DNA from: Bacteroidaceae bacterium
Lineage (GTDB): Bacteria; Bacteroidota; Bacteroidia; Bacteroidales; Bacteroidaceae
Direction: 5' to 3'
NCBI GenBank assembly: GCA_017631315.1
Contig: JAGBTN010000019.1
Span: 1-45,363, forward strand
DNA length: 45,363 nt
The position numbers and the translations under genes were made by a program. Below are positions 264-43,683 of this stretch, piece after piece (the stretch's first letter is position 1; each line of letters begins with the position of its first letter). A model generated the notes under the pieces. It had not been told where the DNA came from, did not search any database, and was given only the letters and a program-made list of their open reading frames with translations.

Positions 264-2201
264 TTATTGCTCGTACTTCGATTTATTCCATACAGGGTTT
301 TGCTCGATGGCACCATTGCTGGCCTTAACCTCCATATAGTAAATCGGACAATATAAACCATAACGATTCTTGAACCTATTGGTCAAGGTAGTAGCATAAC
401 TTGAGTTCGCGCCAGAACCCAAGAACAACTCTACCATTGCTGCCATACCGGTCTGCCCGTTAGGAACTCCAGGTTCACGTGGATCCTCTGGATCGGTCTT
501 CGAATATGAGCTACGCTCTGCCAAGCGTACCAAGTCAAACCAACGCTTACCCTCACCCAGGAATTCGATTTGACGTTCATTCATAACATAGACTATGCCT
601 TCTGTCAAAGTCACGTTATTCTTTGACTTTTTGCTTGTACCATAACCATCACCACAAGAAGCACTCTGTGCCGTGGCGTCCGTATTAGGAGTCTTTGAAG
701 AGTTTCGATAGTTGCAATAAGAACGGCGATGAACTGCATTACAGATAGCCTTGACTGTCTTAAGATTAGAGTTACCTAAGCAGGCAAGTGCCTCTGCCTT
801 AATAAGCATCACATCGGTCATACGATAGACAATCCAGTTATTATACTCTGTAGATGAATATGTTACGCTCTTAATTTCACGATTGGTTGTTGAGCCATCC
901 ATCTTCAATGCACCTTCGTTTCCAAAGTGATATTTCATACAATAATAGTATGACTGTGCTTGAGCACTGGCTTCAGATCCAGTAGACAACTTGTTTTGGC
1001 AACAAATCCAGAGACGTGAATCCCATAAACCGCCATTATCTCCATCACTCGTAATACCGCCATTGTAACATGCATCTAAAGCTGTCTTATTGACAGCCAA
1101 ATGCGTTCCATTGCTGAAACCATAAAGACTGTTCACAATAGAATTCCTTAAACCATCGGAAACACTATACTGCAACTCAAATATGCTCTCACGGCTATTC
1201 TTTGTTCCGAAGATAGATCTATGCGCTTCCAGATTGGGGATAATTGCTTGAGCTGCGCCCTCGAAATTATTCTTAATCATATCGCAGTTGGGAAGCCCGT
1301 AGTTAACGGTCTCTTCCAGGGTAGAACCAAGTCCGGCACTATTTTTTTCTTCCTCATTCTGATTATGTAGATATTGAAGACTGAGATCTGCATATTCTAC
1401 TGCCTTGTTGTAATCTTCATCAACATTATGGGCTATCTCCTCGCCATTTACGATGTCTGTACCTTTCTTTCCATGGCGTCCCTCATGTAAAGAGCCACGC
1501 CACAGATACATATCAGCCAACATTGCATAAATAGCGCAATTGGTAATCATACCCTTGGAGTCGCGCTTATTACTGAAACGATTACGAGCCTTACCTTTTA
1601 CACTCTCACAATCATTAATAATTGAGTCCAGCACTACTAACTGATTTGTCAAGGGGAATGATTCAACCTCGGAGTCCTTATTGATCACCTTGGTTGTATA
1701 AGGAACATCCTTAAAGGCGCGAATAAGATAGAAGTAATTTAATGCACGAAGAGCAATCATTTCCGCACGCATTTGTGTCCATTCGCCAGTCGTGAACTGT
1801 TTGTCCTTCGCAAGAACCTCAGGACCATGCTGCAACACTTTGTTGCAATAGTTGATTGTTGTGTATACACCAGCCCAGTCAAAAACATTCATGCTGGAAT
1901 CCGGCATTCCGCTAATAATCTCCAAATACACATTGTGTGTTGAAATATCGCTCTGAATAGCACTATTCTCTTGGTAAGAGTCGGAACGCAAATCGCCCCA
2001 CAGAGCAAACTTGGAAATAGTAGATGCCATCTGACGATATGCGCCATAGCGTACACCCTCCAAGTCATTCTTGTCCTCCCAGAAATTTTCCTCTACAACA
2101 CGATTCTGAGGGTAGATAGTCAGCCAATCCGTACATGAAGATGAGCAAGCCAAAAATCCAGCAAGACAGATTATATTATATATATTCTTAAAACTTTTCA
2201 T
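264..2201 (-). CDS. SusD/RagB family nutrient-binding outer membrane lipoprotein
   Basis: A surface lipoprotein that works as the lid and ligand-binding partner of a SusC channel. I start at MKSFKNIYNII (position 2201, 645 aa); eight codons upstream in frame overlap the end of susC and look untranslated. The signal peptide ends near Cys19 or Cys23, followed by TDWLTIYPQNRVVEENFW, the typical SusD opening. The body has TPR-like helices and the C-terminal signature region NERQIEFLGEGKRWFDLVR, the most diagnostic stretch of the RagB/SusD family. It lies 13 bp after the SusC stop, so the pair is almost certainly cotranscribed. Substrate cannot be deduced: no glycoside hydrolase, lyase or peptidase is visible in the same operon. 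Confidence 0.93.
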   Translation of the reverse strand: MKSFKNIYNIICLAGFLACSSSCTDWLTIYPQNRVVEENFWEDKNDLEGVRYGAYRQMASTISKFALWGDLRSDSYQENSAIQSDISTHNVYLEIISGMPDSSMNVFDWAGVYTTINYCNKVLQHGPEVLAKDKQFTTGEWTQMRAEMIALRALNYFYLIRAFKDVPYTTKVINKDSEVESFPLTNQLVVLDSIINDCESVKGKARNRFSNKRDSKGMITNCAIYAMLADMYLWRGSLHEGRHGKKGTDIVNGEEIAHNVDEDYNKAVEYADLSLQYLHNQNEEEKNSAGLGSTLEETVNYGLPNCDMIKNNFEGAAQAIIPNLEAHRSIFGTKNSRESIFELQYSVSDGLRNSIVNSLYGFSNGTHLAVNKTALDACYNGGITSDGDNGGLWDSRLWICCQNKLSTGSEASAQAQSYYYCMKYHFGNEGALKMDGSTTNREIKSVTYSSTEYNNWIVYRMTDVMLIKAEALACLGNSNLKTVKAICNAVHRRSYCNYRNSSKTPNTDATAQSASCGDGYGTSKKSKNNVTLTEGIVYVMNERQIEFLGEGKRWFDLVRLAERSSYSKTDPEDPREPGVPNGQTGMAAMVELFLGSGANSSYATTLTNRFKNRYGLYCPIYYMEVKASNGAIEQNPVWNKSKYEQ

Positions 2202-2214
2202 TGTAGTAACAATT

Positions 2215-5200
2215 TTAGAAGCCAAGGGTTAAACTACATGTGAATGACTTTGTACGAGGAGTACGATTGTTGTCAGTTGACACAGCAAATCCTTGAGGAG
2301 AAACGTCAGGATCAACACCTGTATACTTGGTCCAACACCAAAGGTTGTCAACAGAAGCGAAAAGCTTCAATTGGTTAATTCCATATTTCTTCAATTTCTT
2401 TGCATCAAAGTCGTAACTCAATTGAACGTACTGCAGACGCAGATAGTCACCATTCTCAACATAACGATCGCTGGGAAGAGAGTTGTAACTGCTGTAACCG
2501 TTGACACTGCTCAATGCGCGAGGAATAACAGTTTCATCACCATTCTTACGCCAACGCCAGGTTGTTGCATAACTCTGGTTAGTATTGTTCAACATGCTCT
2601 CCAAATTCATGCGGGCCATATTCACAATTTGGTTGCCCACACGGAAGTTGAAACCTGCATTCAGAGAAAGTCTGCCGTAATAGAGGTTAATACCAAAACC
2701 ACCATTACACTTAGGATTGGAGTTACCAAGATAGACCATATCGTAACGGTCAATCTGACCATCATGGTTAATATCCTCATAAATAGCATCACCACCCTGG
2801 AACTTATAACGATAACTCTCATTATAGCAATAGTACATTGGCAAAGGAATACCCTTTGCATCAGTCAACATATTGCCGTCTGCATCATAAGCGATAGGAC
2901 AAGTATGAATCTCGCCACGGCGTTCTGCTGCTGCAGCTGTGTTAATGGGCTCATTATAATTAATAGAACCATCTGCATTTCCAGCATATCCACTATTACC
3001 TACTTCTGCATAACCATAATTAGCAATTGACTGATTAGTATAACCATTGTGTTCATAGTCATACTTATAAACGCCCAAATAATGAAGACCGTAAATAGAA
3101 CCTAACGCATTACCAATCTGTACGCGCTGATTGTAATGCAGATTGCCAGGTTGGAATGTCTCGGCACCATTCAAACTCTCTAGGATAAGGGGATTCATTT
3201 CCTCTACCTCATTGAAGTTCTGAGCAATATTACCGCGAAGTTTCATTGAGAACTTACCAACCTTGCATATACGAGAGGTATAGAAGTTAAGCTCCCAACC
3301 CTTATTGCGGAGTACACCTGCATTCACTTTTGCAAGATTAGAGAAACCATTGGCACTTGCGATACGAAGGTTATCCATCAAGAGGTCTGTGGTTTTATGG
3401 TCATAGACTTCACCCTCGAAAGTAATCAAGTCCTTAAAGAAACCAACATTGAAACCAAAGTTGAGCTTTCTAGTCTTTTCCCAACGTAACTGTTCCAAAG
3501 AAAGATTCTCAGGTGTAATTACCTGGTGGCCATTATAATATCCATTGGTTGAATACTTATTGTACTGATTACCGCCTGCACTACCTAGACCAGTAATACC
3601 CCAAGAACCACGCACAGCTAACATGCTAAGCCAATCCTTGCTCCAATTCATGAAGTCCTCGTCGATGATATTCCAACGTGCACCGGCAGCAGGGAAGAAT
3701 CCATATTTGTACTTACGGCCGAAGTTTGTACTACCATCCCAACGTATAGAAGCATCTACAGAATACTTACTTTTGTAAGAATAGTGTGCTGTACCAAAGA
3801 ACGATTGATTTCTCCACTCACTGGTACCAGAACTTGCATCACGAAGTAAGGCAACAACTGTAGGATCTGTTATGCCATTGGGGACGTTCCACAAACCAAG
3901 CATTTGAGAGCTACTACTACCGGTTGCCATTTCGTAACGAACCAAAGCAGAAACGCTATGATCACGGTTCGGGAATGCAGAATAATAACGCAAATCATGT
4001 CGAGTTGTGAATTCTAACGATTTATACTCGTCATTGCTAACATAGTTACGTTCATTGGGAGCGAAACTTGCTGCGTTGTCGCCACCCCAAACCCATTCCA
4101 TTGGACGGAGTTCGCTCGGACAATACTGGTCGTTACTGGTATTGTAAATGTTGAGCAATACGTCTGCAACATAGTTCAAGCGATGGTGATCATCATCCTT
4201 ACCCAGGAGTTTATATTCCACGAAGAATTGAGGAGTAAGGTTGTATTGTTTCTGTTTCCACCATGCTTTAGTGGCACGTGCTACAGGGTTGCCGTTCTTA
4301 AACATATCCCTGAGGTCATATGACGTATATCTGTTCACATCATAATTCTGCATCTCAGCAGTGCTACCAGTACTGTAAACAGCTGCCAAAGGAAGCATGT
4401 TGAAATAATTATCCGTCCGAACAGGATTGCCAAACTCATCAAGTCTGTACTCGTAGACACTCATATTAGGCATAGCATTGTATGCACGAGCAAGGATATC
4501 ATTACCGTAGTTCTTATTATTGGTTGTAAAAGCCAAGTTAATATTACTTGAGAATCTGATACGGTCGCTGACCCAGTAGTCGAGAGCTGTTGCGGTGGTA
4601 AAGCGGTCAAGTTTCTGGCCAATAATAGTACCTGCACTCTTATCATAGTTGGCACTAATACGGAATGTAGCCTTTTCACCACCACCCGTAAGTGCAACGG
4701 TGAACTTGTGTTCCTGACCAAACTGCTGCACCTTCTTCACCCAGTCTGTATTATGGCTATAGTGGCTATATACGTATGGTAACTCCGTATTATAGTCTAA
4801 TTCGGGCAAACTGGTATTTTGATGATTGGGGTTGAAGTATGCTTCTTTCAGCATCATGGTGTAACCGTCGCCATCAAGCATTTCGTATCCCTCTGGCTGC
4901 CACGTACCCTTGAACTTATAGGTAAAGTTCACACGTGTCTTACCTCTTGAACCACGACGTGTTTTAATTTCAATAACACCATTTGAACCTCTCATACCCC
5001 ATTTTGCAGTACTTGCTGCGTCCTTCAAAACAGTAATGCTTTCAATATCCTCTGGATTAACCTGCAGCAAAGTTGAGAACTGCTCCTCGTTATCCATTGT
5101 TTCAAAGTTAATGTCTTGTGCATCTTCCGGTAATTCGAAGATGTGATCATTGAGGACAATCAGAGGCTGTGCATTACCATTAATCGTCGTTGTACCACGC

Positions 5201-5736
5201 AGACGCATAGTTGTACCAGAACCGAGGTTACCTGAATTCGGCACGATATCAAGGCCAGCTATTTGACCTTGCAAAGCCTGGTCGACAGATTCGAAAGCCA
5301 AACCTTCCATATCGTCCATCTTGAAATTCTGTACGGCACCTGCATATTCACGAGCAGGAATTTCAAGACCAGTAGTGGGAGCCATTTTCTTCTTGGTAAT
5401 GGTCACCTCCTGCATAGTTTTTGTGTTATCCTGCAAAGTAATTTTGAAAACACTTTTACCGCTACCTATCTTTTGGCTGAATTTTCTATAACCTATGTAG
5501 GTTACTTCCAAAGTGTTATTCGGATCCTTGATATTCATGGTAAAGTTACCATTCATATCCGTAATAGCTTGACTAACAATACGGTTATTCTTGTCAATTT
5601 CCTTGACATTAGCACCAATAACAACATCGATATCGTCGGATACGGTACCAGAAATACGCCGCTGTTGTGCGCTTGCGGGTATCGCCATCATTGCAACCAC
5701 CCAAAGCAGTAAAAACTTAGATAATATATTCTTCAT
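2215..5736 (-). CDS. SusC/RagA family TonB-linked outer membrane protein
   Basis: A TonB-dependent importer of 1173 aa forming the channel of a SusCD complex. Order: signal peptide 1-23 (cut before QQRRISG), a carboxypeptidase-D-like regulatory domain at about 27-112 (ISGTVSD...VTYIGY), then LQEVTIT-like text (MQEVTITKKKM), a TonB plug at about 130-260 (ALQGQIAGLDIVPNSG, MRLRG, VNPEDIESITVLKDAAS, GSNGVIEIKTRRG) and a long beta-barrel ending in an aromatic residue (SLTLGF). The plug stretch normally reading PLYVIDG is PLIVLNDHIFEL here, a mild divergence. It starts 12 bp after the upstream FAS1 protein and ends 13 bp before SusD, so all belong to one transcript. Energised by TonB-ExbBD, which is not in the window. 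Confidence 0.95.
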   Translation of the reverse strand: MKNILSKFLLLWVVAMMAIPASAQQRRISGTVSDDIDVVIGANVKEIDKNNRIVSQAITDMNGNFTMNIKDPNNTLEVTYIGYRKFSQKIGSGKSVFKITLQDNTKTMQEVTITKKKMAPTTGLEIPAREYAGAVQNFKMDDMEGLAFESVDQALQGQIAGLDIVPNSGNLGSGTTMRLRGTTTINGNAQPLIVLNDHIFELPEDAQDINFETMDNEEQFSTLLQVNPEDIESITVLKDAASTAKWGMRGSNGVIEIKTRRGSRGKTRVNFTYKFKGTWQPEGYEMLDGDGYTMMLKEAYFNPNHQNTSLPELDYNTELPYVYSHYSHNTDWVKKVQQFGQEHKFTVALTGGGEKATFRISANYDKSAGTIIGQKLDRFTTATALDYWVSDRIRFSSNINLAFTTNNKNYGNDILARAYNAMPNMSVYEYRLDEFGNPVRTDNYFNMLPLAAVYSTGSTAEMQNYDVNRYTSYDLRDMFKNGNPVARATKAWWKQKQYNLTPQFFVEYKLLGKDDDHHRLNYVADVLLNIYNTSNDQYCPSELRPMEWVWGGDNAASFAPNERNYVSNDEYKSLEFTTRHDLRYYSAFPNRDHSVSALVRYEMATGSSSSQMLGLWNVPNGITDPTVVALLRDASSGTSEWRNQSFFGTAHYSYKSKYSVDASIRWDGSTNFGRKYKYGFFPAAGARWNIIDEDFMNWSKDWLSMLAVRGSWGITGLGSAGGNQYNKYSTNGYYNGHQVITPENLSLEQLRWEKTRKLNFGFNVGFFKDLITFEGEVYDHKTTDLLMDNLRIASANGFSNLAKVNAGVLRNKGWELNFYTSRICKVGKFSMKLRGNIAQNFNEVEEMNPLILESLNGAETFQPGNLHYNQRVQIGNALGSIYGLHYLGVYKYDYEHNGYTNQSIANYGYAEVGNSGYAGNADGSINYNEPINTAAAAERRGEIHTCPIAYDADGNMLTDAKGIPLPMYYCYNESYRYKFQGGDAIYEDINHDGQIDRYDMVYLGNSNPKCNGGFGINLYYGRLSLNAGFNFRVGNQIVNMARMNLESMLNNTNQSYATTWRWRKNGDETVIPRALSSVNGYSSYNSLPSDRYVENGDYLRLQYVQLSYDFDAKKLKKYGINQLKLFASVDNLWCWTKYTGVDPDVSPQGFAVSTDNNRTPRTKSFTCSLTLGF

Positions 5737-5748
5737 AGTCGGATGATT

Positions 5749-8700
5749 TTATCGGATAGCATATCTCTGCAAATACGCCTTTGCCTTAATGGTATTCTCC
5801 CATGTCTTAGTATGGTCACCATCAATAACTTCCGTATGGTTCAAATAGCCAGGTATAGAATGTATCACAGCTGCACTAGAGGCGTTGATGGTAATACCCT
5901 TCATCTGTACACCTATAGGAGATTTGTTACATGAAATGTCACGAGCAAGAACATTCTTCTCACCTACAGTAACAAAAGGATCAGCACCCATGTTATTGCC
6001 ATTCTTCTTCCAAGTCACATCGTCACATACGCGAAGTTCTGTTCCCTCTCCATTTCTAATGCGATCTACATGCAACTTGCAGAACAATTCAAGATCCTTG
6101 TCGTAACTTGATGTTACCATTTCATTAGGTTTCAATTCTGTCTTGTCGGCAAATACTGAATTATCCGCAAAATGATAACGTACAAAATTCGTCAAGTATG
6201 TTATCTTGGCTGCGATACGGATACTATCTGCTGTTGTTTCGAGTGAGTCTGTATATACAATCTCACCATCGGGATCAAGCTTCACAACCCATTCTGTAGT
6301 ACCATCTTCATTCTCTACTTCCTCCATTTCTGGCTTGCAGTGGCTACGGAAATCTTCGCGGATCTCTTCCCATGTAGGCAAGCCCGCTGCAATTGCCTCG
6401 CGTACAGCATCGTTTGTAGGAACAAAAATAGTATAACGATAGTTATTAAAGAACTGGATATTGTAATCCAAGCCATTATCACCGATAAAGACCTTGAACT
6501 TCTTGAGAGCTGATTCACGCTGGGTCTTTGTGAGATTTCCATCTACAAGACCACAACCGATAATTTCTGTTTCATAGCCGTCAGCCGTACAAAGTTCATA
6601 GAACTCGCTGTAAGGTGTTTCGCCGGCATTCTCCTTATTCAAATCATAGTCGTTGGTAAAAATACTGTAGACACTACGATAAGTAGGAACCATTGGGGCA
6701 TTCAGAACATAGGTATGACCATTGTCCACATTACGTGTCTTGGTAAGCTTACAAGTAAGCACACCAGGATTTTCACTAACTACACCTTGGCGTTCGTTCT
6801 CCAACTGGAAACCACCCTTAATCGCAATAACACTATCATTTTCATCACGAACTACCTTAATTGCATTACCATTCTTTGACAAATAGTATTCATCAAGGGG
6901 TGTCGAAGGATCAATTCCATAGTATTTCTGGTCGGCACGGGTCATCGGGTTTGTTCCGTCATGCACAATAGTATGACTCTCGAGAATATCCTTCAAACGG
7001 TTGCTAACTTCTCCATTTTCATAGGTATTTGCACCAGGAATAACACTACCAATACTTCCCACCTCATTTGCTCCCTTATTGTAAGGGCAATAGTAATTTC
7101 TAAATCTCAATTTTACAGGGAAGTTACCACCTACGTGATAAAACTCAACAGCACGCGGTGTACGGCTCTTCATACTTGCAGGGTCGTAGTAATAGAACAA
7201 CGCGCTATCGCTTGGCAGCAAGAGAGTGAACTTACTTTGCATGGCCTTAAGGTATGCATAGTAGTTCAGACCATTCATAAACTCTGGTCTTCCCTTGTAG
7301 CCAGCATAAATAGCGTCCTGCATAACCTTGTTTGTCTCGCTGATAAATGCGGGCGCTGTAACGGCACGATAGTCCGCAGGGACGCAGGTTCTATCCATCA
7401 CATAGATAACACCATTGTTTGCAACCAAACATGTATCAAGTTGACCTAAAGCCTCTTCTACATTCTCAAACAACGGATCTTGCGCATCATCGGTAATCTT
7501 AGACCACTTGCTGGGAACAGAACCGATAAAGCTAATCTTCATCATATTATCTACAAGCGCAGCAATTGTACTAATAGGAATGCAGTCAATCTGCATATAA
7601 AGTTCCTCTAAAGTAGTTGCGCGTGTGTATGGAATTTCATTCTCTGTTCCTTCGTGTGCATAATACGTGCGAATGAGGTCTTCACCTGCATTATGGAAGT
7701 AATGCCACATTTGGTCGTCGCTAGGCACAAACATTGCCGCCATATCCTTGCGTACATCTACCTCATCATAATAGCCATTCCATCCGGGATCGAACTTAAG
7801 ACCTGCCGGAGTATATGACGTAGTCGGATCCAAATATGGATTGTAGGTTTGATAAGTGCCCCTCGGACCCGGCTCGAACAAAGGAACTGCTCCATTATTA
7901 TCTGCCTTAACATATCCTCCCTTTACGGAAAAGTTGTTAACGGAGAAATATCTCTTTGTGAAAATTGAGTCATTAAAATCGGGATGAAGAACCTTATAAG
8001 CCTCCGTAATACGCTCGCAATAGAAAGGAGCGCTGAAACGGTCAAGAATATGACTGAAGATATTTGTCTTGCCATTAGTACGAAGAACCTCTGCCATATT
8101 GGTCATAGGACAAAGAGGTTTCTCGGTTACATTGACATAACCATTTTCACATACACCATCCTTCTCTTTCAAAATAGCATCATATATGTGCACGTCACTT
8201 GTGTTTCTGGGACGGCCCATGATATATTTGAAATCCTCGTCGGTGACAATGTTTCTTGTAAGATGCTCTGATGTAAAGTGAAGCATCATAGGCAACGTAG
8301 AGTCAATGGCCAAATAAATGCCCTTGCCGCCGTTTTCCTCACGGAAACGTGCCCAATAATCCTTTTCAATTGGAGATTCGCTGAATGGCAAATCCTCAGA
8401 TGCAATATATGTGATTGAGTCTGTTGCCTCTACGTCGGTATAACGACGCATGTATTCTCCTGGAGTCGGAACAGAGCCGCCACTTGACTGGCTGCTGGAC
8501 AAGTTCTCCATCACAATAGCATTATTAAGCATACTAGTGTGAATCAACAACTTCTTCTGTGCTTGGCTTAGTTTCTCGTAACTTGTAGCATAATGCCACG
8601 GATTGCCTTCCGGCAACAAGGCATTAGCTGCAAAAAAAGCATCCCAGGCAGAGTCATTTGCCACGAAGACTGTCTTTGAGCCAGTACGATTCAGCACGTC

Positions 8701-11796: not shown

Positions 11797-12564
11797 ATGG
11801 AAAAAAAGATAAATACAGGCAAAGTTTTCCTCATTGCCGGCAGCGAACCGCTGGGAAGTGCCGGTGTCCAGGCTGACATAAAGGCCATTACCCGCTGCGG
11901 CGGCTGGGCGGCTGCTGCGCTGACGTGCATCGTGGACGAGGACGTGAACCGCATCAAGGGCATCCACAACCTGCCCACCGACCTGATTGTCTCGCAGGCG
12001 GAGTCGTTTTTGAGCACCGTTGGTGCCGATTGCATCAAGACGGGGCTCATGCCCACCGACGAGATTATCCATGCCGCAGCCGACGTTTTACAGCGATACA
12101 ACAAGCAACCCATCCTCATCGACCCTGTCCTTGTGAACTTCGAGGGCAAGAAACTGGTGAGCGATGGTGTTATCGAAGCCTACAAGAAGCTGCTCTTTCC
12201 GCTTGCCACGCTTATAACACCCAACGTACACGAAGCGGCCTTCCTGTTGGGACATGCCATCACCGACCCGAAAAGCGACTTGAAGAAACTGTCGGAATGG
12301 GGGTGCAGCGTGCTGGTGAAGAGCGTGGAGGAAGGCGACTACCTGGTGGACTACCTCTACGACCGCACCACAGACACTCTCACACCACACCCGAAGAAGA
12401 AACTCGTGCTGGACGACCGCAACGGAACGGGCGACACCTTGTCGAGCGCCATTGCCACATATCTGGCCAAAGGCGACAACCTCTCCACCGCCGTAGAACG
12501 TGCGGAAGCCTATATGAGCTACTTCCTGGCCGGGCCTCGCTACTACATCAGCGTAGGACTCTGA
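11797..12564 (+). CDS. thiD: ThiD/PdxK-like hydroxymethylpyrimidine or pyridoxine kinase
   Basis: A 255-aa ribokinase-fold kinase that phosphorylates hydroxymethylpyrimidine (thiamine pathway) or a vitamin B6 vitamer. Motifs in order: IAGSEPLGSAGVQADIKA (family form GSDxSGGAGIQADLK), ADCIKTGLM, ILIDPVLVNFEGKKL, LITPNVHEAAFL, and DDRNGTGDTLSSAIATYLA as the anion-hole and catalytic motif. Typical ThiD has GTGC there; the Asp of GTGD is the form of PdxK and other PfkB-type kinases, so the substrate is uncertain. I start at ATG 11797 (MEKKINTGK) because the promoter's -7 box lies immediately upstream; longer reading frames would run into the promoter. No TPP riboswitch or thiamine neighbour is visible. 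Confidence 0.85.
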   Translation: MEKKINTGKVFLIAGSEPLGSAGVQADIKAITRCGGWAAAALTCIVDEDVNRIKGIHNLPTDLIVSQAESFLSTVGADCIKTGLMPTDEIIHAAADVLQRYNKQPILIDPVLVNFEGKKLVSDGVIEAYKKLLFPLATLITPNVHEAAFLLGHAITDPKSDLKKLSEWGCSVLVKSVEEGDYLVDYLYDRTTDTLTPHPKKKLVLDDRNGTGDTLSSAIATYLAKGDNLSTAVERAEAYMSYFLAGPRYYISVGL

Positions 12565-12593: not shown

Positions 12594-12618
12594 CTAAAAA
12601 AGACAGGCGAACCTGTCT
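12594..12618 (-). terminator. Rho-independent terminator for the wzc transcript
   Basis: Stem AGACAGG, loop CGAA, CCTGTCT at 12601-12618. On the minus strand it is followed by a run of six T (12602-12597). It lies about 125 bp past the wzc stop, beyond the 22-bp repeat array; its second half also fits as a first, diverged unit of that array. Confidence 0.75.
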
Positions 12619-12715
12619 CGAAATAAAGGTTAAGCATTACGGCAATAATGGTTAACCTAATTAAAGAAAATGGTTAACCATTCCGGGCAGAACGGTTAAC
12701 CATTATTTTTCCCTA
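12606..12715. repeat. Tandem array, five 22-bp units based on GGTTAACC (array A)
   Basis: Units begin at 12606, 12628, 12650, 12672 and 12694, exactly 22 bp apart. Each opens with GGTTAACC or a variant (GGCGAACC, GGTTAAGC), usually followed by ATT and a variable part with CGGCA and AAT. It sits between the convergent thiD and wzc genes, 28 bp from the wzc stop. It is too short, too degenerate and has no spacers, so it is not CRISPR. Confidence 0.85.
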
Positions 12716-24263: not shown

Positions 24264-24329
24264 TTTGCACGTACATGTATATTCATTTGCACATACATGT
24301 ATATTCAATCGCACGTACGTGTATGTGCA
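24264..24329. repeat. Tandem array, three 22-bp units based on GCACGTACATGTATATTCA (array D)
   Basis: Units begin at 24264, 24286 and 24308. The first two differ by one base (TTTGCAC(G/A)TACATGTATATTCA); the third diverges. Each contains the self-complementary core TACATGTA or CGTACG. It lies about 150 bp upstream of the ECF sigma promoter and just past the terminator of the thioredoxin-like gene. Confidence 0.88.
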
Positions 24330-29533: not shown

Positions 29534-30367
29534 TTATCTGACTGTTATATGGAAACAAGCCTGCTTGACTTCGTACTTAATATAGCAGAGTTCCTTTTCG
29601 CGAATGTCTCGCAGGACTTCGCTCAACACCCATTTGAGTGTGTCGTTCCGCACGGTTCGTCGTTGAGGACCATCTGGCGGGGAAACTGTTGAGAAGCGGT
29701 TGTAGCAGATGTCGAACGTCGTGCCGAAACGATGGCAACTTTGTTCGGTGGCATTGGGGTTGCGTCGGCGAAGGCGGGCAACATCGGCTTCTGTTCTTAG
29801 TACACTCGACACGATGATACGATGCAAGGGGATTCCCTTCACATACAGGCTGTCGAGATAGTTGCGTCCTATTGTGGAAAGCAAATGGCTGGCTCGGGGA
29901 ACGAGGTAAGGTATGCTGTACCTCATGTTATTATCGATGCAGAAGAAGGGACTTGCGCCCACATAAACGAGTTCGTTCCTGCGCTTTTCTGCCTCCTCTC
30001 TGTCGCGGACAGGAGAAACGCCCCATTGTTTTGCAGCCACAATCTGCACATCCTGCAAGTCGGGGAAACAGGCAGCATACGAGTGAACACTACGGACGGG
30101 ATGCCATTTTGCAGGAGGATTCGGACAGACCGACTGGGTTGCCGAATCCGCCACCTCTGATTGCTCTTCAAACTTAACGTGTTTAGTTGGCAAACTATCC
30201 ACGTTAAGTTTGGCAACTTCACGTGTTAAGTCGGCCGACTTAACTGTAGTAGTTTCGTCACTCCCTATAGGCTCCGCCACATCGGGGAAGGCAAGCCTTA
30301 CCGCTCCAAGCAATAAGACCGTTCCTCCGAAAATGCCTAAAAATATCTTTTTCTTTAGTCTTCTCAT
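29534..30367 (-). CDS. DUF5715 family protein
   Basis: 277 aa from ATG 30367 (MRRLKKKIFLG); the longer frame begins inside the promoter. A single N-terminal TM segment or signal anchor (IFLGIFGGTVLLLGAVRLAF), a low-complexity stretch, then a conserved domain with SVHSYAACFPDLQDVQ, SSVLRTEADVARLRRRNPNATEQSCHRFGTTFDICYNRF and a C-terminus IKYEVKQACFHITVR. The H-x-F-G-T-T-F-D-I motif and the late FHIT resemble metal-ligand positions of D-Ala-D-Ala carboxypeptidase-like (M15-type) folds, so a role on peptidoglycan is possible; this is inference. Divergent from phoH. Confidence 0.78.
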   Translation of the reverse strand: MRRLKKKIFLGIFGGTVLLLGAVRLAFPDVAEPIGSDETTTVKSADLTREVAKLNVDSLPTKHVKFEEQSEVADSATQSVCPNPPAKWHPVRSVHSYAACFPDLQDVQIVAAKQWGVSPVRDREEAEKRRNELVYVGASPFFCIDNNMRYSIPYLVPRASHLLSTIGRNYLDSLYVKGIPLHRIIVSSVLRTEADVARLRRRNPNATEQSCHRFGTTFDICYNRFSTVSPPDGPQRRTVRNDTLKWVLSEVLRDIREKELCYIKYEVKQACFHITVR

Positions 30368-33804: not shown

Positions 33805-36285
33805 TCAGAAAGGATATCCGATGGCAAGGTGATAGCCCAAAGACTTGCCGAAGCTGGGCATATTGTAGTAGCCTCGCTTGCCAGTGTCGTAGGGGGCATG
33901 TATGCCAATGCCGAGGTCGAAACGGAGAACCAGGAAATCAAGGTCGTAGCGTATGCCGACACCTGTACCGAGGGCAATCTGTTTGCCGAAATCCTTGAAA
34001 GAGAATTTACCGCCTTGTTGACTTTCGCTTTCACGCAAAAGCCACACATTGCCTGCATCTATAAATGTGGCTCCCTGTAACTTTCCGATGATGGGGAAGC
34101 GATACTCTATGTTGGCCTCAAGCTTGAGGTCGCCCATCTGGTCGATGTACGAGTACTGCGACCTCTTCGGATGATAAGAACCGGGGCCTATTGTTCGCAT
34201 TCCGAAAGCGCGAATACTGTTGGCACCACCTACAGAGAAGAGTTCGCTGTATGGTGCAACCTTTGCATTGCCGTAGCTGTATACAATACCGCCAAAGGCA
34301 CGCATGGCCAACAGGCTGCGCCTGGTGAGCGGCACCTGACGAGTGTATTGCACGGTTCCCTTGACAAACTGTGCAAAAGGTACCCCCAACAGTTTCTTTC
34401 CCTCTTGGCTATATGGTTCTCCACAAATGGCATATATGCTTGACACCACTGCTGATGCCTCCTTCAATGAGAGGACGAGAGAGGATGGATGCTTGGGGCT
34501 TCCTGCCCACGAGAACGTATATGACATGCTGGGCACGAACTGGTCGCGCATGGAAACATAGAGGGCTGGGTTCGCAGCCACGATGGAATCGAAACGTGCT
34601 GTGCTGTGCAGCAACTGGTCGTAAGTGATGGTCAGGGGTGAGAACTCATGTTTTATGTTCCGTTTGTGCTGTAGGGTGTAGTTGACTCCGCCGCTCCACG
34701 ACACTCTTCCGAAGAAGCCTGCCCGGTTTTGCCAGCGCGCCTGCAAGTCGATTGCTGTGGAAGAAACATAGCGGCGGCTAAGTTTTCTGCCTAATCCAAG
34801 ACCGAAGAAGCGGAATCGGGGATAGGAAAGCGAGCCGCTCAAACCGTATTCGTAGGAGTTCAATAGTGAGCTTCTTCCTTCTGTGTTTGCGCCTGTTTGC
34901 CATTCGTAAGAGCCCCACGCCTTGAATGTCAGTGTTTCGGCATCGCGGAAGGCATTGTGTTTGGAGAATGAGAAACTGGCTCCCGGGCCTACCTGCCCGC
35001 TTATTTTACCCGTTATGTTTCCTTGGAACTCGGCATCATAGGGTTTGTCGAGGGTTGCATTGACCACGATGTCTAATGTGTCGTCTGCTCCTTCTTTGTT
35101 CTGGCGCGGCACGTAATTGATGCGAACTGACGAGAAGATGTTCATGGAGGCTAAGCCGTCTTGCATCAGATCGTTCAGCGATTGGCGATAGAGGTCGCCA
35201 CGGTGGAACATCATGGAACGCCAGATGGTGCGAGGCTTCAGCAGGGGTTTGTCGGCTGGCTGGCTGTATCCGAACGAGAAGCCGCCTCGCATGGTGAGAC
35301 TATCAACTATCCGGCGGTCGCCGTGCTTGTATATATTCACGCGCGTGTTACCTATATAGTAAGGTTTCATTGCTTCCTTCGGTACTGTTGGGGATGGTTG
35401 CACCTGGAGTTTCACCTTCATTGGTGTCTGGATTGTATCGGCTCGGAATGAGATGTGTTCGTTCCGCTGATAGTAGTAGCCTTGTTCGCGGAGGGCTTTT
35501 ACTATGCGTGAGCGTTCGTTCTCCAGTGTGACGACGCTGAACGGGTCGCCTCGTCGCAGCAATGGGCGTCCGCCGCTGCGGCGCATGACGCTGTCTATTG
35601 CGTGGGGGAAGTTCACGTAGGAGACGCTGTCGAGATGATAAAGCGGACCGGGATGGACGGCGTAGCGCACGCGTTCCTTCAGTGTGTCGCGTGCATCGGG
35701 CAGTACTTCGTAGGATGTTTGGGCTCGGAAATAGCCTCGGCTGCGCAGTGTGTTTTTAGCCACGACGGTACGCATTCGTGGGTTTACGTTGCTGATAAGT
35801 ACGGGTTTGGCTGCGAATGTGTTGAACATCCATTTGCCGAATCGGCGTTTGCTGCCGGCGTATTTGTTATAGATGAGGAGTTTTATGGGGAAGGGATGTG
35901 TGATGAAACTGCTGCCCATGAGGGCGCCGTTGGGTGCATAGGACAAGACGGCCTCCACTTCTTCTTTTGCTGCATCGTAGGCTTCCTGTTCCTTTCGGGA
36001 AGCACGGCGAAGGCTGTCGCGCAGGGCTTCCTCGTCCATCTGCTCCGACTTCATGGCGGAGGCGTCGCCGCTGAGCAGGCCTTCGACGGTTGTGTAGGCA
36101 TCTGCAAGGGCTGTGATGACGCCTTCTTCTTGCTTTTTGGCCTGTTCGCGAGGCTCTCCGTCGTAGTCGATGCTCTTTATGCCCCGATAGAGTTTCTCGC
36201 CTTCGGGCAGGTTCTCTGTGATGGAGCAGGCCGAGAGGAGCAGGCAAAACAACAGGTGTGTTATTATTTTCAGTTTGGTGTTCAT
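33805..36285 (-). CDS. tamL: TamL: lipidated TamA/BamA-family outer membrane protein
   Basis: 826 aa. N-terminal signal with lipobox LLFCLLLSAC (Cys20), then SITENLPEGEKLYRG. POTRA-like repeats fill about 130-450 (VVAKNTLRSRGYFRAQTSYEV; RIVKALREQGYYYQRN) and a D15/Omp85 barrel makes up the C-terminal half, with GGANSIRAFGMRTIGPGSY (the conserved lid-lock loop region) and a final YHLAIGYPF. The lipidated N-terminus marks the Bacteroidetes TamL form, which works with TamB in outer-membrane protein or lipid transport. It lies 156 bp downstream of tamB, with array B in the gap. A small hairpin (36301-36315, CCCTGA-TTT-TCAGGG) lies 16 bp before the start. Confidence 0.9.
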   Translation of the reverse strand: MNTKLKIITHLLFCLLLSACSITENLPEGEKLYRGIKSIDYDGEPREQAKKQEEGVITALADAYTTVEGLLSGDASAMKSEQMDEEALRDSLRRASRKEQEAYDAAKEEVEAVLSYAPNGALMGSSFITHPFPIKLLIYNKYAGSKRRFGKWMFNTFAAKPVLISNVNPRMRTVVAKNTLRSRGYFRAQTSYEVLPDARDTLKERVRYAVHPGPLYHLDSVSYVNFPHAIDSVMRRSGGRPLLRRGDPFSVVTLENERSRIVKALREQGYYYQRNEHISFRADTIQTPMKVKLQVQPSPTVPKEAMKPYYIGNTRVNIYKHGDRRIVDSLTMRGGFSFGYSQPADKPLLKPRTIWRSMMFHRGDLYRQSLNDLMQDGLASMNIFSSVRINYVPRQNKEGADDTLDIVVNATLDKPYDAEFQGNITGKISGQVGPGASFSFSKHNAFRDAETLTFKAWGSYEWQTGANTEGRSSLLNSYEYGLSGSLSYPRFRFFGLGLGRKLSRRYVSSTAIDLQARWQNRAGFFGRVSWSGGVNYTLQHKRNIKHEFSPLTITYDQLLHSTARFDSIVAANPALYVSMRDQFVPSMSYTFSWAGSPKHPSSLVLSLKEASAVVSSIYAICGEPYSQEGKKLLGVPFAQFVKGTVQYTRQVPLTRRSLLAMRAFGGIVYSYGNAKVAPYSELFSVGGANSIRAFGMRTIGPGSYHPKRSQYSYIDQMGDLKLEANIEYRFPIIGKLQGATFIDAGNVWLLRESESQQGGKFSFKDFGKQIALGTGVGIRYDLDFLVLRFDLGIGIHAPYDTGKRGYYNMPSFGKSLGYHLAIGYPF

Positions 36286-36315
36286 TTTCTATTCTCTAAG
36301 CCCTGATTTTCAGGG

Positions 36316-36447
36316 GGTGTTTTGTGCTGCCGAACAAGGTATGGCTTGTTGGCCATAATGGTTAACCTTTCCGGCAATAATGGTGTGCCTTGTTGGGCAA
36401 TTCGACGTGGCTTGTCGACAGAGGTGGCGCGGCTTGTTTTTTTATTC
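36316..36447. repeat. Tandem array, six 22-bp units, mostly a GGYGYGSCTTGT variant (array B)
   Basis: Units begin at 36316, 36338, 36360, 36382, 36404 and 36426, all 22 bp apart. Only the third opens with GGTTAACC; others start GGTGTTTT, GGTATGGC, GGTGTGCC, GACGTGGC, GGCGCGGC and most go on with CTTG or TTTG. The second and third end in (C/G)(C/G)CA(A/T)AAT as in the other arrays. The last unit overlaps the tamB stop codon (36442-36444). Confidence 0.75.
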
Positions 36448-39400
36448 CTCCTTCCTGACCTTCTCTTTCTCCTTTCGGAAGATGAAAAGTTCGCTCAGTT
36501 TGTCGGCCTTCTTCCTCAGCACAATGCCGCCTCCCATCTTTGTCACCTGCCCCTCGAGCAGCGACTCGTATTCGTTGTCGTAGAAGAGGTTGACATAGCG
36601 CGAAGCAGACTTGTCGAGACGATACTCTATGGCTATATTGTCGATGATGGTCTGTCCGTTGTTGACAGCATCGGAGCCTGCGCTGACCTTACCGCCGACG
36701 ATGACGCTGATGCGGTTGCCCCAGAAACGCTTGGCAAAGCTGAAGGTGTAGTCGGTCGTCGTGGTGCCGACCTCCGACGTGCCGCTTGCAATGCCAAAGT
36801 TGACGTCGACCGTGCTGAGAGCCTTGCCGGCAATCTCGTTGATGGCACTCTGCAAGTAGGCATTGAGCGTGTTGGCATAATTGTAACCGCCATTTGCCTC
36901 CGTGTCATCCGTGACGTACATTCCCGTGACAAGCATCGTAACCGCCACACGTCCGCGTTCCTCCGGAGTCATGGCCGTCAACTGATTCTGCACAGTCAAA
37001 TCTTCGGGAGCCTGCAAGGTGAACTCCAGTCCCATATCCTCGAGCGTGCGACTCAGAGCAAGGCCCACATCGAACGCCACATTGCGAGGCACACTGTTCT
37101 CCGTGACCGTTGACCTGACACGCTCGCTGGCATTGATGCTCAAACGGGGATTCATCATGTTGCCCTGAAACTCCACATAACTGCCCTGGGCAATCTGGAA
37201 GTCGTTCAACGGAATGGCCATCAAAGAATAACGCATCGTACCCTTGTTGATGGTATAACGTCCCCAAAGCTGAAGATCGTTCTGGAGGTCGTAAGTCAAT
37301 GTCACATCACCCCCACCCTGCAAGACAATAAAGTCGTTGCCATTGTCGCTCAAGTAGCAATGCACCTGAGCAGCCTCCGCAATGCTGACATCCATCTGGA
37401 TATCCATGCTCTGGCGGACAGCCTCTGGCGTCTCCACAGCAATCGTATCGCCAAAATCATGGAAGGTGACAATGTCCGAAAGCTGGTCGTCGACCGTAAT
37501 AGGCGTGTCCGAAAGGTAGCAACTCACATCAGTGCTGCCAAGCACATCGAGGCGGCCACGCATCTTGAGGTCCGTCGGCGTACCCCAAAGACGACCGCCA
37601 AGATTGACAAACATCTTGCCATAAGCCAATGCCCCCTGCTTCTTCGGCGCATTGATAAGCGGATAATCCTTCGCCCGCACATTCATGTCCAACAAAACAT
37701 TATCCAGGCGACTGAAGTCGATATTGCCATCGAGAACAAGCGGAGTATCGCCCGCAGCATACGCCTCAATGCGGTTGAGAGCCAGACGACTGTCGTCAAC
37801 CGTAACGGTATGGTCGGGAATCCTGAGATTCACACTGTAACTATCCGCCTTGATGTTAAGCGAATCCGTACACAACTGACCATTCAATATCGGATTGTCA
37901 ATACCGCCGCTCAACATAAAATCACCGGAAGCATAACCCGACATTGCAAGCGGACCATCGGGCATAAAAGCATTGAGAAAAGCAAAAGGAACTCGCTGGA
38001 ATGTACTTTCACCTTCCAACATACCCCGTCCGCCCACATCATAATATCTGCCATTAAGCAAAACAATCTCGTTCCCGTCATGAGTACAGATAGCATCCAC
38101 ATAATGCGAGCCGTCAGCATTCGGGAAGTAAATGCCATTGAGCCCAAGGTCTCCCAGACGAACCCCGTTATACGTCATTCCGTTCACCAGCATCTCAGCC
38201 GAAACAGTTGTCAGGCTGTCTGCCTGCATATAGTGGAAGTCGCCATGAAGGAAACCACTGATGTCGGGCATAAAAGGAATCACCTTCGTCAATTCGCCTA
38301 CATTGAAATGATTCACACTCAACGAAATATCCTGCTGCGCCTCTTCGTTGGGCGTCGTATAGACCTTAATGCCCGTACCATCATCGGCAAGAAGATCAAC
38401 CAATGCCGCAAGATGTCCCTTGTTCGACAAACGGATGAAATTATCCTCGTTAAGCGTAAAGTTTCGATAAGCAATAACCGGATTGAGCGGAGTAAAGTGC
38501 ACCTGAACACCATCGGCAAGAAGATTGAATGCCAAACCAAAGTCAACACTCTTCTTCCCCTTGGCATCAATAAAAACAAGGTTAGCATTTGCACCCGTAT
38601 CAGTCAACGATGCCCGCAACTCCGACTGAAAAGTAACCATACGATTCCTCGGCCCATTAGCAACACGAGCATCAAGCGAAACACCACTCTCCTTCTGGTA
38701 AATGCGCCACTCCATGCTGTCAAGCAGAATGGCACCCGTGTTAAGAGCATGCATATGCCCATTACCTTTCAATCCCTCCATTGGCGACGAAAGTACCTGG
38801 AACGACATGTCTCGGAAACTATAACCTATCGTATGACGCAGAATATTACTCAACGGATTCTTCGCCCCACAAGCAAAATCTACCCGCAAGTGTGGCAGAA
38901 GATCCTTAAGAACGTTCTGCTGTAAACGAAGACTATCTATCTCCCTCTCCAACTCCTTCCCGACATTGTCGAAACAACACAGCAATGAATCCAAACCCTG
39001 ACTGGAAGAAACCGACAAAGAAAGGTCGCCAGCCAAAGTTTCCAGTTGAATAAAATCCGGTGTCAAATTAGCATTGACAGCAAGATCATAAGGATGGAGG
39101 ATACTATCTGCCGTCACCAGCTCCATAGCCTCAACACGAGCATTCAAAGTATGCGTCTGCCGAAAATCAGAAGAGCCATCCATGTGCATCACCATACTCG
39201 CAGAAAACGGCTTCTCCGCCATACGAAGCGCATAAAGATCAATATGGCCTAAATCCATATTGAATGACGTCTCTTGCAACTTTCGCTCGTCAATAGTGGC
39301 ATCTATACAGCCATAAAACTGAAGCAACTCGTTCCGGCTGTTCATTTCTGCCATAGCCTTTCCGTCCTTCAGACGACAATCGGCATGAATACTATCCAGC

Positions 39401-41016
39401 GTCCAAGAAGCATAACCCAAATGGTCAATATCCAGTTGTGCTTGCAATCGTGTTTTTCGGCTCAAGAAGTCAGTACCACAACCAGACAGTTTTGCATGAG
39501 CAGAAAGAAGATAAAGTGAATCGTGAGGCAAGAAATCATGAAGCTGCAAATCGGTAATGCGAGCCCTCGCCTGGTAAACCATAGATTCTAAATCAATACT
39601 TCCTGCAAGATGCGCTCTGCCTTTGCCCTCAAGAAGCAACGCATCCATCGAAATCTGCGAAGCCTGTCGCAATCGCGTATCTGCATGAAGAACCATCTTT
39701 GGGAAATGAACATCAGTCAGACCAAGATAGCGATTGATGCAAGAAAGATTCATTGTGGTGATATCAGTCCTTAGGTCTGCCCCCAACGCTACACTGTCAA
39801 TTAAATTATGTATAGCACCCGTCATGCGGACATCTATAATCGAGGGCATTGTTATATCGCAAACCTGCAGAGAAAGGCTATCCACATTGCCTGACACATC
39901 TATATTAAGGTTCAATGGTTGAGCAGGATAACATTTCGCCAAATCTTTTGGCAAATATGCCGCAGCCAGACAAAGGATGTCTTTACTTCCTAAAGAAGCC
40001 TGCAATTCGGCCTCCAGATTTCCTCGCTTGCCTTTAGAAAGAGCATCTAAATCAAGATTGATATTGCCCGTTGCGGAGCTATATTGTGTTTGAAAGTCAA
40101 GTCCCGTTGCCGCGAAACAAGTTGAATCGAGAGAAAGATTAACAGACAAGTTATCCAAACGGAAACCACTCTTTTCCTCGAACGCAAGCCGACGTAATTG
40201 CGCATAAAGTGCTGAAGAACCTTGATTAAAGTACAACTTGTCAAGTTTCAGTTCGACATTTTTGAAAGAAAGGTGATTAACATCCAAGCCCACAACAGAG
40301 TCTGCAGATGGAATATCATATGAAAGACTATCCGCAATGATGCTGATATTTCCTATTCCATACGCAGCATTACCTAGATTAATGTCTGCAGCATCAAGAG
40401 TTGCTTCACGGAGAGAGGCGCTGACACACATTGTGTCGTTTGGCAAATGCAAAACTATCTTGCTTCGACAAACATGCACCTTTTCTACATCTATTTGCCA
40501 ATCTAGAGGAGAACTTGCCGAGGTATCTTCTGGTGTTTCACGAAGTTTGATGTCGAGCACACAGCTATCCAGCATTGCAACTGGCACACTTACACACTTC
40601 TTTCGCAAGTCTATATCGTCGGCAATCAGTGTGATGTTGTTGATATTGGCATCTAATGCTACTGACTCGATTAACTCTGTTATGTGGATATTGCCTTTGG
40701 AAAGTTCGATGGCCTCCACGCCGACATGCAACATCAAAAGGCGGGAAAGATCCAAATCAACTATGGCACTCTCCACATCTACCACATCGGTAGGTGCTTT
40801 TTCTATGTGCACACTCTCGAGACGAAGGTCGAGAAGAGGCGTCAGATGTATACTGCCTACTGTCAACTCGAACTCTGTTTCCTTATCTACCCAGGCAGAA
40901 AGTCTATCTACTGCCCACTTTTGTATGGGCGGAAGATAGAGGCTGGCTATTAGCATCGCAATGAGCAATACCAGTACCGAAAGTGTTTTGAATATGTATT
41001 TTAGCGCGCGTTTCAT
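36442..41016 (-). CDS. tamB: TamB: translocation and assembly module, AsmA-like bridge protein
   Basis: 1524 aa. One N-terminal TM anchor (TLSVLVLLIAMLIASLYLPPIQKWAVDRLSAW) then a very long periplasmic beta-rich region of repeated AsmA-like strands. The C-terminal TamB/DUF490 domain shows SINASERVRSTVTENSVPRNVAFDVGLALSRT and FSFAKRFWGNRISVIVGGKV. This shape forms a hydrophobic groove across the periplasm that carries lipids or supports outer-membrane protein assembly together with TamL, the next gene downstream. Length is in the upper range of the family. No frameshift seen. A -7 element is present just upstream of the start. Confidence 0.93.
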   Translation of the reverse strand: MKRALKYIFKTLSVLVLLIAMLIASLYLPPIQKWAVDRLSAWVDKETEFELTVGSIHLTPLLDLRLESVHIEKAPTDVVDVESAIVDLDLSRLLMLHVGVEAIELSKGNIHITELIESVALDANINNITLIADDIDLRKKCVSVPVAMLDSCVLDIKLRETPEDTSASSPLDWQIDVEKVHVCRSKIVLHLPNDTMCVSASLREATLDAADINLGNAAYGIGNISIIADSLSYDIPSADSVVGLDVNHLSFKNVELKLDKLYFNQGSSALYAQLRRLAFEEKSGFRLDNLSVNLSLDSTCFAATGLDFQTQYSSATGNINLDLDALSKGKRGNLEAELQASLGSKDILCLAAAYLPKDLAKCYPAQPLNLNIDVSGNVDSLSLQVCDITMPSIIDVRMTGAIHNLIDSVALGADLRTDITTMNLSCINRYLGLTDVHFPKMVLHADTRLRQASQISMDALLLEGKGRAHLAGSIDLESMVYQARARITDLQLHDFLPHDSLYLLSAHAKLSGCGTDFLSRKTRLQAQLDIDHLGYASWTLDSIHADCRLKDGKAMAEMNSRNELLQFYGCIDATIDERKLQETSFNMDLGHIDLYALRMAEKPFSASMVMHMDGSSDFRQTHTLNARVEAMELVTADSILHPYDLAVNANLTPDFIQLETLAGDLSLSVSSSQGLDSLLCCFDNVGKELEREIDSLRLQQNVLKDLLPHLRVDFACGAKNPLSNILRHTIGYSFRDMSFQVLSSPMEGLKGNGHMHALNTGAILLDSMEWRIYQKESGVSLDARVANGPRNRMVTFQSELRASLTDTGANANLVFIDAKGKKSVDFGLAFNLLADGVQVHFTPLNPVIAYRNFTLNEDNFIRLSNKGHLAALVDLLADDGTGIKVYTTPNEEAQQDISLSVNHFNVGELTKVIPFMPDISGFLHGDFHYMQADSLTTVSAEMLVNGMTYNGVRLGDLGLNGIYFPNADGSHYVDAICTHDGNEIVLLNGRYYDVGGRGMLEGESTFQRVPFAFLNAFMPDGPLAMSGYASGDFMLSGGIDNPILNGQLCTDSLNIKADSYSVNLRIPDHTVTVDDSRLALNRIEAYAAGDTPLVLDGNIDFSRLDNVLLDMNVRAKDYPLINAPKKQGALAYGKMFVNLGGRLWGTPTDLKMRGRLDVLGSTDVSCYLSDTPITVDDQLSDIVTFHDFGDTIAVETPEAVRQSMDIQMDVSIAEAAQVHCYLSDNGNDFIVLQGGGDVTLTYDLQNDLQLWGRYTINKGTMRYSLMAIPLNDFQIAQGSYVEFQGNMMNPRLSINASERVRSTVTENSVPRNVAFDVGLALSRTLEDMGLEFTLQAPEDLTVQNQLTAMTPEERGRVAVTMLVTGMYVTDDTEANGGYNYANTLNAYLQSAINEIAGKALSTVDVNFGIASGTSEVGTTTTDYTFSFAKRFWGNRISVIVGGKVSAGSDAVNNGQTIIDNIAIEYRLDKSASRYVNLFYDNEYESLLEGQVTKMGGGIVLRKKADKLSELFIFRKEKEKVRKEE

Positions 41017-43558: not shown

Positions 43559-43595
43559 ATTTCTACACCCGCCGACATTCCGACACAAAAATAAT

Positions 43596-43683
43596 GGTTA
43601 ACCATTCTGGCAAGATAGGTTAACCATTTTGTGTGTAAAGGCTAACCATTATCGACAGAATGGTTAACCTATTTTTTGCATAT
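43596..43683. repeat. Tandem array, four 22-bp units based on GGTTAACC (array C)
   Basis: Units begin at 43596, 43618, 43640 and 43662, exactly 22 bp apart. Starts are GGTTAACC, GGTTAACC, GGCTAACC, GGTTAACC, followed by ATT (three times) or TAT, then variable sequence. The array ends exactly at the base before the stop codon of the GH3 gene (43684) on the opposite strand. Confidence 0.92.

Follow-up and report, generated by a model that had tools for sequence, protein, structure and literature searches.

The intergenic DNA of this Bacteroidaceae bacterium carries a large number of tandem arrays in which a short palindrome recurs at an exact 22-bp period, preferentially beside the 3' ends of genes. 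It is the geometry that is conserved, a palindrome every two helical turns next to gene ends, and this fits cooperative dimers bound to one face of the DNA. The arrays suggest a DNA-binding system, not described so far, whose reading step is two helical turns. The reading we lean to, to which we give a little less than an even chance, is that they are putative docking arrays for cooperative dimeric DNA-binding proteins at the ends of transcription units, where such proteins would organise the nucleoid or insulate neighbouring units.

The window, i.e., the whole stretch of 45,363 nt that was analyzed, contains three arrays reported by a first-pass annotation, all listed without a strand. Array A (12606..12715) consists of five 22-bp units with the boxes GGCGAACC, GGTTAAGC and three times GGTTAACC, and its end is ATTATTTTT; the boxes start at 12606, 12628, 12650, 12672 and 12694, in steps of exactly 22 bp, with 2, 1, 0, 0 and 0 mismatches to GGTTAACC. 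It lies between two convergent 3' ends, those of a ThiD-like gene on the plus strand (ending at 12564) and a Wzc-like gene on the minus strand (ending at 12744). Array C (43589..43683) has four 22-bp units (GGTTAACC three times, GGCTAACC once) with an A-tract on its left and a T-tract on its right; its boxes start at 43596, 43618, 43640 and 43662 (0, 0, 1 and 0 mismatches to GGTTAACC) and 14 bp separate the end of the last one from the stop (43684) of a minus-strand GH3 gene. Array B (36316..36447) is made of six 22-bp units with a single exact GGTTAACC (36360), the others being GGTGTGCC-, GACGTGGC- or GGCGCGGC-like; five of the six boxes differ from GGTTAACC at 3–6 of 8 positions, and the 22-bp period is real. 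Two minus-strand genes border it, a TamB-like gene with its stop (36442), which the span as given overlaps, and an Omp85-family gene with its start. The Omp85-family and TamB-family genes are adjacent on the minus strand within 33805-41016, with array B in between. The exact 22-bp period claimed for the three loci therefore held, as did their position at the 3' ends of minus-strand genes, while the claim that they share one opening box applies to A and C and only partly to B (one of six boxes). Identity at lag 22 was 0.51, 0.52 and 0.59 for A, B and C, values matched by none of 20,000 Markov shuffles per segment. Two further unstranded arrays were found: one of period 22 at 24264..24324 (TTTGCACGTACATGTATATTCA word, 2.8 copies, ACATGT/ACGTGT core), absent from the annotation's finding, and one of period about 22 at 30169..30231 (ACGTGTTAAGTT word, 2.8 copies, one indel class in TRF), which lies inside a weakly scored predicted ORF (29534-30313, minus strand). 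None of the arrays matched Rfam above the gathering score, the sole match in the window being a tRNA.

The genome that holds the window (2.68 Mb in 21 contigs, 86.6% complete) contains 350 places that match GGTTAACC-N14-GGTTAACC with at most two mismatches, against 2 for the reversed pattern. The first-pass annotation had expected both a genome-wide excess over control and a preference for gene 3' ends, and both were found. For finer analyses, we used the window together with 40 further stretches (794 kb), 839 kb in all or 31% of the genome, and called genes with our own simple ORF caller. Pairs of exact boxes up to 140 bp apart in this sample occurred only at spacings of 22 (n = 35), 44 (n = 24), 66 (n = 18) and 88 bp (n = 2). 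Seed-and-extend delimited 48 GGTTAACC arrays, none of them in a called gene (48/48 extragenic), with four units in 31, three in 7, five in 6 and two in 4, and in profiles, apparent weaker outer boxes may prolong arrays in register. The period also stands out when no word is specified: among 331 intergenic segments scanned at lags 10–79, lag 22 was recovered in 62, lag 44 in 34, lag 66 in 7 and any other lag in at most one, with none at lag 23. A slightly looser cut applied to the whole sample gave 86 arrays at lag 22 as compared to 0–11 at the other lags within 19–25, and a still looser one, which had no lag control, added 43 arrays.

The GGTTAACC box is one of several words, since other palindromes share the period both in this genome and elsewhere. 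By our own word list, the 81 extragenic lag-22 arrays comprise 45 GGTTAACC-like, 20 ACGTGT-like, 8 CTGCAG-like, 4 CATG-type and 4 GGCANNCC-type arrays. The consensus unit of the GGTTAACC class is AAWGGTTAASCWTT followed by a variable centre with GGC or GCC, and units of other classes typically read AACTTAACGTGTTAAGTT-GGCC or AACTTCTGCAGAGAAGTT-GGGC. The units are more palindromic than their shuffles: when the consensus unit is treated as circular, 7.4 of 11 pairs are complementary in the 79 arrays scored, against 5.8 after shuffling, and the 36 arrays without a GGTTAA word reach 7.2 of 11 against the same 5.8. A palindromic 22-mer in tandem places a dyad every 11 bp. Some arrays carry inverted-repeat-like ends, GAAAACATCTACTGCC ... 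GGCAGTAGATGTTTTTC, in the same 22-bp register (L054 near 3418; L063 near 13354; L061 near 10158 and 12676), and these look like a terminal inverted repeat or the stem of a bidirectional terminator.

Exact GGTTAACC matches are confined to few relatives. A contig scan for the exact triple box returned 30 stretches, from the Bacteroidaceae MAGs RGIG4268 and RGIG6660 and from single other contigs labelled Chitinophagaceae, Tannerella and Prevotellaceae; viral contigs gave 0 matches to the triple word, and carriage of that exact word by phages is thus unlikely. The exact pair occurs in 5 of 139 genus genomes, 105 times in the genome studied here, 112 times in G288, 17 times in G298 and once in each of two others, and in wider draws it was found only in the genome studied here (1/151 in the family, 1/118 in the phylum). 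Judging by the array sequences that they have in common, G288 and G298 are probably RGIG4268 and RGIG6660. The period reaches further than the word. Stretches of genus-mates hold 11 lag-22 arrays in 315 kb (lag 14 is close with 9, the median of the other lags being 1). Other genera of the family likewise have 11, in 353 kb with one N run dropped, and the next lag has 5. Counts drop to 1 in 310 kb for other families of the class (two N runs dropped) and to 0 in 323 kb for other members of the phylum (three N runs dropped). In genus-mate and class stretches (L086-L101, L106-L123), lags 14, 21, 28 and 35 are also raised, by heptad-type repeats separate from the 22-bp arrays. Palindromy is again above shuffled in genus-mates (6.3 against 5.5 pairs, 12 arrays) and in the family (6.6 against 5.4, 11 arrays), while tandem repeats at other lags in these relatives stay within about 0.7 pairs of their own shuffles. 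The words found elsewhere are ACTCGAGT, AACTAACGTTAGTT, GACCTAGGTC and GGACGCGTCC; for instance, in G005, a genome of another genus with a first contig of 3.29 Mb, GACCTAGGTC-N12-GACCTAGGTC is present at 17 places and its control at 0. In RGIG6660, a GGTTAACC array adjoins period-22 units of AAGGACTTAYRGNACAAGGTGC and CGTACGCTTT (L044, 5087-5300), so words can change along one locus. Outside the Bacteroidaceae, on a single contig of a Chitinophagaceae MAG (L024, region 485-8000), GGGTTAACCC-type units keep the 22-bp register exactly and number more than eight, in arrays near 6485 and 6583.

Arrays are most frequent per kb of gap between convergent genes (1.31, n = 20), followed by co-directional (0.70, n = 42) and divergent gaps (0.51, n = 13). 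These counts disregard 5 arrays within called ORFs and 6 at the edges of stretches. Of the 42 arrays in co-directional gaps, 36 lie closer to the 3' end of the upstream gene (p 3e-6); the median distance is 33 bp to the stop of that gene and 165 bp to the start of the following one. This bears out the preference for gene 3' ends proposed earlier. Array polarity shows no association with the direction of transcription (15 to 9, p 0.31), and A/T-tracts are alike on both sides (A-run of 4.3 before, T-run of 4.5 after, p 0.60).

The arrays are stable and their boxes constrained when compared with a sister species. Loci of RGIG4268 align to the genome studied here with 89–97% identity, and 2206 of 15344 third codon positions are changed in the aligned loci. 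Changed sites amount to 12/298 (4.0%) in boxes, 58/392 (14.8%) in spacers and 147/707 (20.8%) in flanks, which indicates purifying selection on the boxes and agrees with the earlier observation of a fixed period with drifting bases between boxes. All 11 arrays in the aligned stretches are present in RGIG4268, 10 of them without alignment gaps, and no empty site was seen, although for one array per locus presence is biased because the loci were fetched for holding a triple box. Unselected tandem duplication by slippage, merely tolerated between genes, would account for units of the same array being alike and commonly sharing polarity, but it should produce many periods where only 22 and its multiples were seen, and it predicts neither the conservation of boxes relative to spacers nor the narrow range of unit numbers nor the recurrence of the period in further genera with words of their own; we regard it as very improbable.

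The first-pass annotation offered two readings of the spacing, boxes that face one side of the DNA or boxes that pair in the 3' end of the mRNA. Adjacent units of the GGTTAACC class are less complementary than shuffled ones at spacer positions 8 and 11 (z -3.4 and -3.6), and most positions of adjacent boxes are at the shuffled expectation. An excess is seen at the central positions 3 and 4 (z 6.4 and 7.3), due to two arrays in which complementary GGTGTACC and GGTACACC boxes are neighbours, an arrangement that RNA or cruciform pairing would also explain. Neighbouring boxes with matched GC/GC halves were seen 3 times, where frequencies predict 2.7. Among 103 box changes, 84 are G/C transversions at outer positions and 2 are outer-position G>A or C>T changes of the kind a G-U pair could tolerate. 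The changes also tend to spare one half of the box: in SSTTAASS boxes located 22 bp from another (n = 171), the left half is altered in 30, the right in 41 and both in 1, with about 7 expected, and a wider count gave 4/176 against 8.2 expected (P 0.044). Over all 183 boxes, both halves are altered in 5 against 9.7 expected, and the rule is weak; all 5 are of the GGTACACC type, and it is these boxes that break it. When at most one change per half is allowed, the 5 doubly altered boxes compare with 6.5 expected (P 0.31). On balance, the box changes fit the recognition of one good half-site per unit, and since the variants are mostly uncompensated G/C transversions, recognition of DNA half-sites is favoured over RNA pairing. 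For the ACGTGT class, where the count mixes two registers, covariation is positive at part of the outer positions (z 2.7–5.5) and negative at others. Boxes on one DNA face are consequently the better fit of the two readings, and hairpins between adjacent boxes in RNA are unlikely as the main constraint in the GGTTAACC class, save in the two compensated arrays; mRNA pairing is mostly not supported for the GGTTAACC word, with the central covariation standing against that.

A broader RNA function, in which the arrays act as tandem hairpins at transcript 3' ends for bidirectional termination or mRNA protection, draws on their position after stop codons and on the covariation just described, and it is retained as a rival because a hairpin with a T-tract lies in or at the end of the array at 36 of 71 array-bearing gene ends. 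Terminator-like arrays are more numerous in the sense than in the antisense orientation (19/42 vs. 10/42), but the difference is not significant (Wilcoxon p 0.19), while array-free gaps give 19 against 3 of 61. A canonical terminator separate from any array is present in similar proportions with arrays (22/71) and without (77/186, p 0.15), and such terminators are no rarer where the array is terminator-like (12/36) than elsewhere (10/35, p 0.80); in 17 of 71 cases, one already stands ahead of the array. With no significant polarity and with canonical terminators not replaced, unidirectional terminators were judged unlikely. The spacer positions that pair below shuffled, the swapped halves that find no match and the prevalence of transversions also speak against an RNA role in general, which we consider fairly unlikely.

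A limited search of the open-access literature found no earlier description of 22-bp palindromic arrays in this group, and the known systems that come closest each differ in some respect. Iterons and operator arrays are tandem protein sites spaced at whole helical turns that support cooperative binding at one or a few loci per replicon or regulon; the arrays described here share the whole-turn spacing and, unlike them, occur chromosome-wide and with several words. The sites of matS/MatP, SlmA and Noc are scattered, regionally enriched palindromic words, used as single sites with one word per protein. Our arrays are likewise scattered, region-enriched palindromes, yet they are phased at 22 bp, employ several words and lie after gene ends.

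Extragenic repeats offer a different comparison. According to PMC3733652, REP/BIME elements (GTAG- and CGTC-tagged families) are extragenic palindromes with many loci in a genome, of which most are located 3' of genes and between ORFs that converge or point the same way; they are stem-loops of 20–40 bp with a tagged end and units without a fixed register, their sequences differ by species, and CGTC repeats are reported for Bacteroidetes among five phyla. The arrays resemble them in being extragenic (48/48), 3'-biased (36/42), palindromic and present in many copies, and differ in their exact 22-bp register and in the several words per genome. Their box changes seem mostly uncompensated in the GGTTAACC class, two central positions excepted, and give a mixed picture in the ACGTGT class. 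BrickBuilt, as portrayed in PMC4596501, is a minisatellite MITE of Porphyromonas gingivalis with a 23-nt unit, leader and tail segments and terminal inverted repeats, known from 19 loci in one species. In comparison with that description, our arrays are also short intergenic tandem repeats of a Bacteroidales genome, but their unit is 22 bp, they have three to five units, they occur about once per 10 kb of sample, and they use several words in several genera. As to terminal inverted repeats and mobility, some arrays have inverted-repeat-like ends, and 11 arrays showed 0 gains or losses relative to one sister species.

Selfish or semi-mobile repeats of the REP or MITE kind could accumulate 3' of genes, being tolerated neither in promoters nor in coding DNA, and could spread locally so that words cluster by region. 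Such an origin would suit extragenic, palindromic, 3'-biased repeats with hundreds of copies per genome and lineage-specific words, as well as the GAAAACATCTACTGCC ... GGCAGTAGATGTTTTTC ends and the neighbouring spacers within an array, which share polarity in 58 cases against 18, as after tandem duplication. It sits poorly with boxes that are far more conserved than their flanks and with arrays kept in place at 11 of 11 sites in the sister species (the choice of triple-box loci biasing that count), and one exact period with differing words across genera would be unexpected for unrelated elements. In addition, no match to the Y1 (RAYT) transposase PF01797 was found in the 86.6%-complete genome, compared with matches in 5 of 14 control genomes, and a REP system with its Y1 transposase is therefore unlikely here. 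Overall, we hold a selfish or semi-mobile origin to be unlikely.

Words do cluster by region. Pairs of arrays 8–60 kb apart belong to the same class in 184 of 350 cases (null 132 +/- 10, p 3e-4). The 43 ACGTGT-class arrays of the whole genome (0-1 mismatch, hand-merged) and the 25 strict GGTTAACC triples separate by contig to a degree that none of 20,000 permutations reached: no ACGTGT-class array is on C1, C15 or C18 and no GGTTAACC triple on C10, C16 or C19. The separation is not absolute, as C1 gains one ACGTGT-like array under looser scoring, and C10 and C19 gain three and one GGTTAACC arrays, respectively. Two organisms in one bin are an unlikely cause, since both main classes occur on C3, C10 and C12; in tetranucleotide profile, the six contigs with at least 80 kb sampled correlate at 0.96–0.98, with shorter contigs lower. 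Strong local copying is unlikely as well, given that the spacers of arrays less than 6 kb apart are only slightly more alike (0.719 vs. 0.683, p 0.07), a trend in the direction that local spread of mobile repeats would give. No tie between word regions and the origin or terminus was seen, dnaA, rplB and parB being on contigs of differing word content; one ParB_N protein was found, and the contig that encodes it is rich in GGTTAACC. The 12 arrays of G005 are interrupted by a gap of 1.34 Mb (p 0.04).

Under the docking-array reading, each 22-bp unit would be a palindrome in double-stranded DNA read by a dimer of a sequence-specific protein, and the spacing of two turns would align dimers, typically four (the number of boxes in 31 of 48 arrays), on one face of the DNA, where they could bind cooperatively. 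Placed after transcription units and away from promoters, such arrays would most likely organise the nucleoid or insulate neighbouring units. The several words per genome require either several proteins or one flexible protein; different words in one genome may be read by different, probably paralogous, proteins, and the words would change as lineages diverge. An extension of this reading to a family-wide system of chromosome marking, in which a conserved rule of palindromic 22-bp units with dyads every 11 bp, located after genes, persists while the word evolves from species to species and varies among chromosome regions, so that fast-evolving cooperative proteins write regional addresses, is possible if rather doubtful.

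Mobile debris and RNA hairpins are the customary interpretations of short extragenic repeats; here it is the geometry, and not the sequence, that is conserved. Its recurrence in several genera with unrelated words predicts a set of proteins that recognise dyads phased at two turns. The lag-22 excess in intergenic DNA provides a simple scan with which the system could be mapped across genomes. To our knowledge, few architectural proteins have been described for this dominant group of gut bacteria, and if the arrays mark regions or the ends of transcription units, they would offer a handle on chromosome organisation in these organisms.
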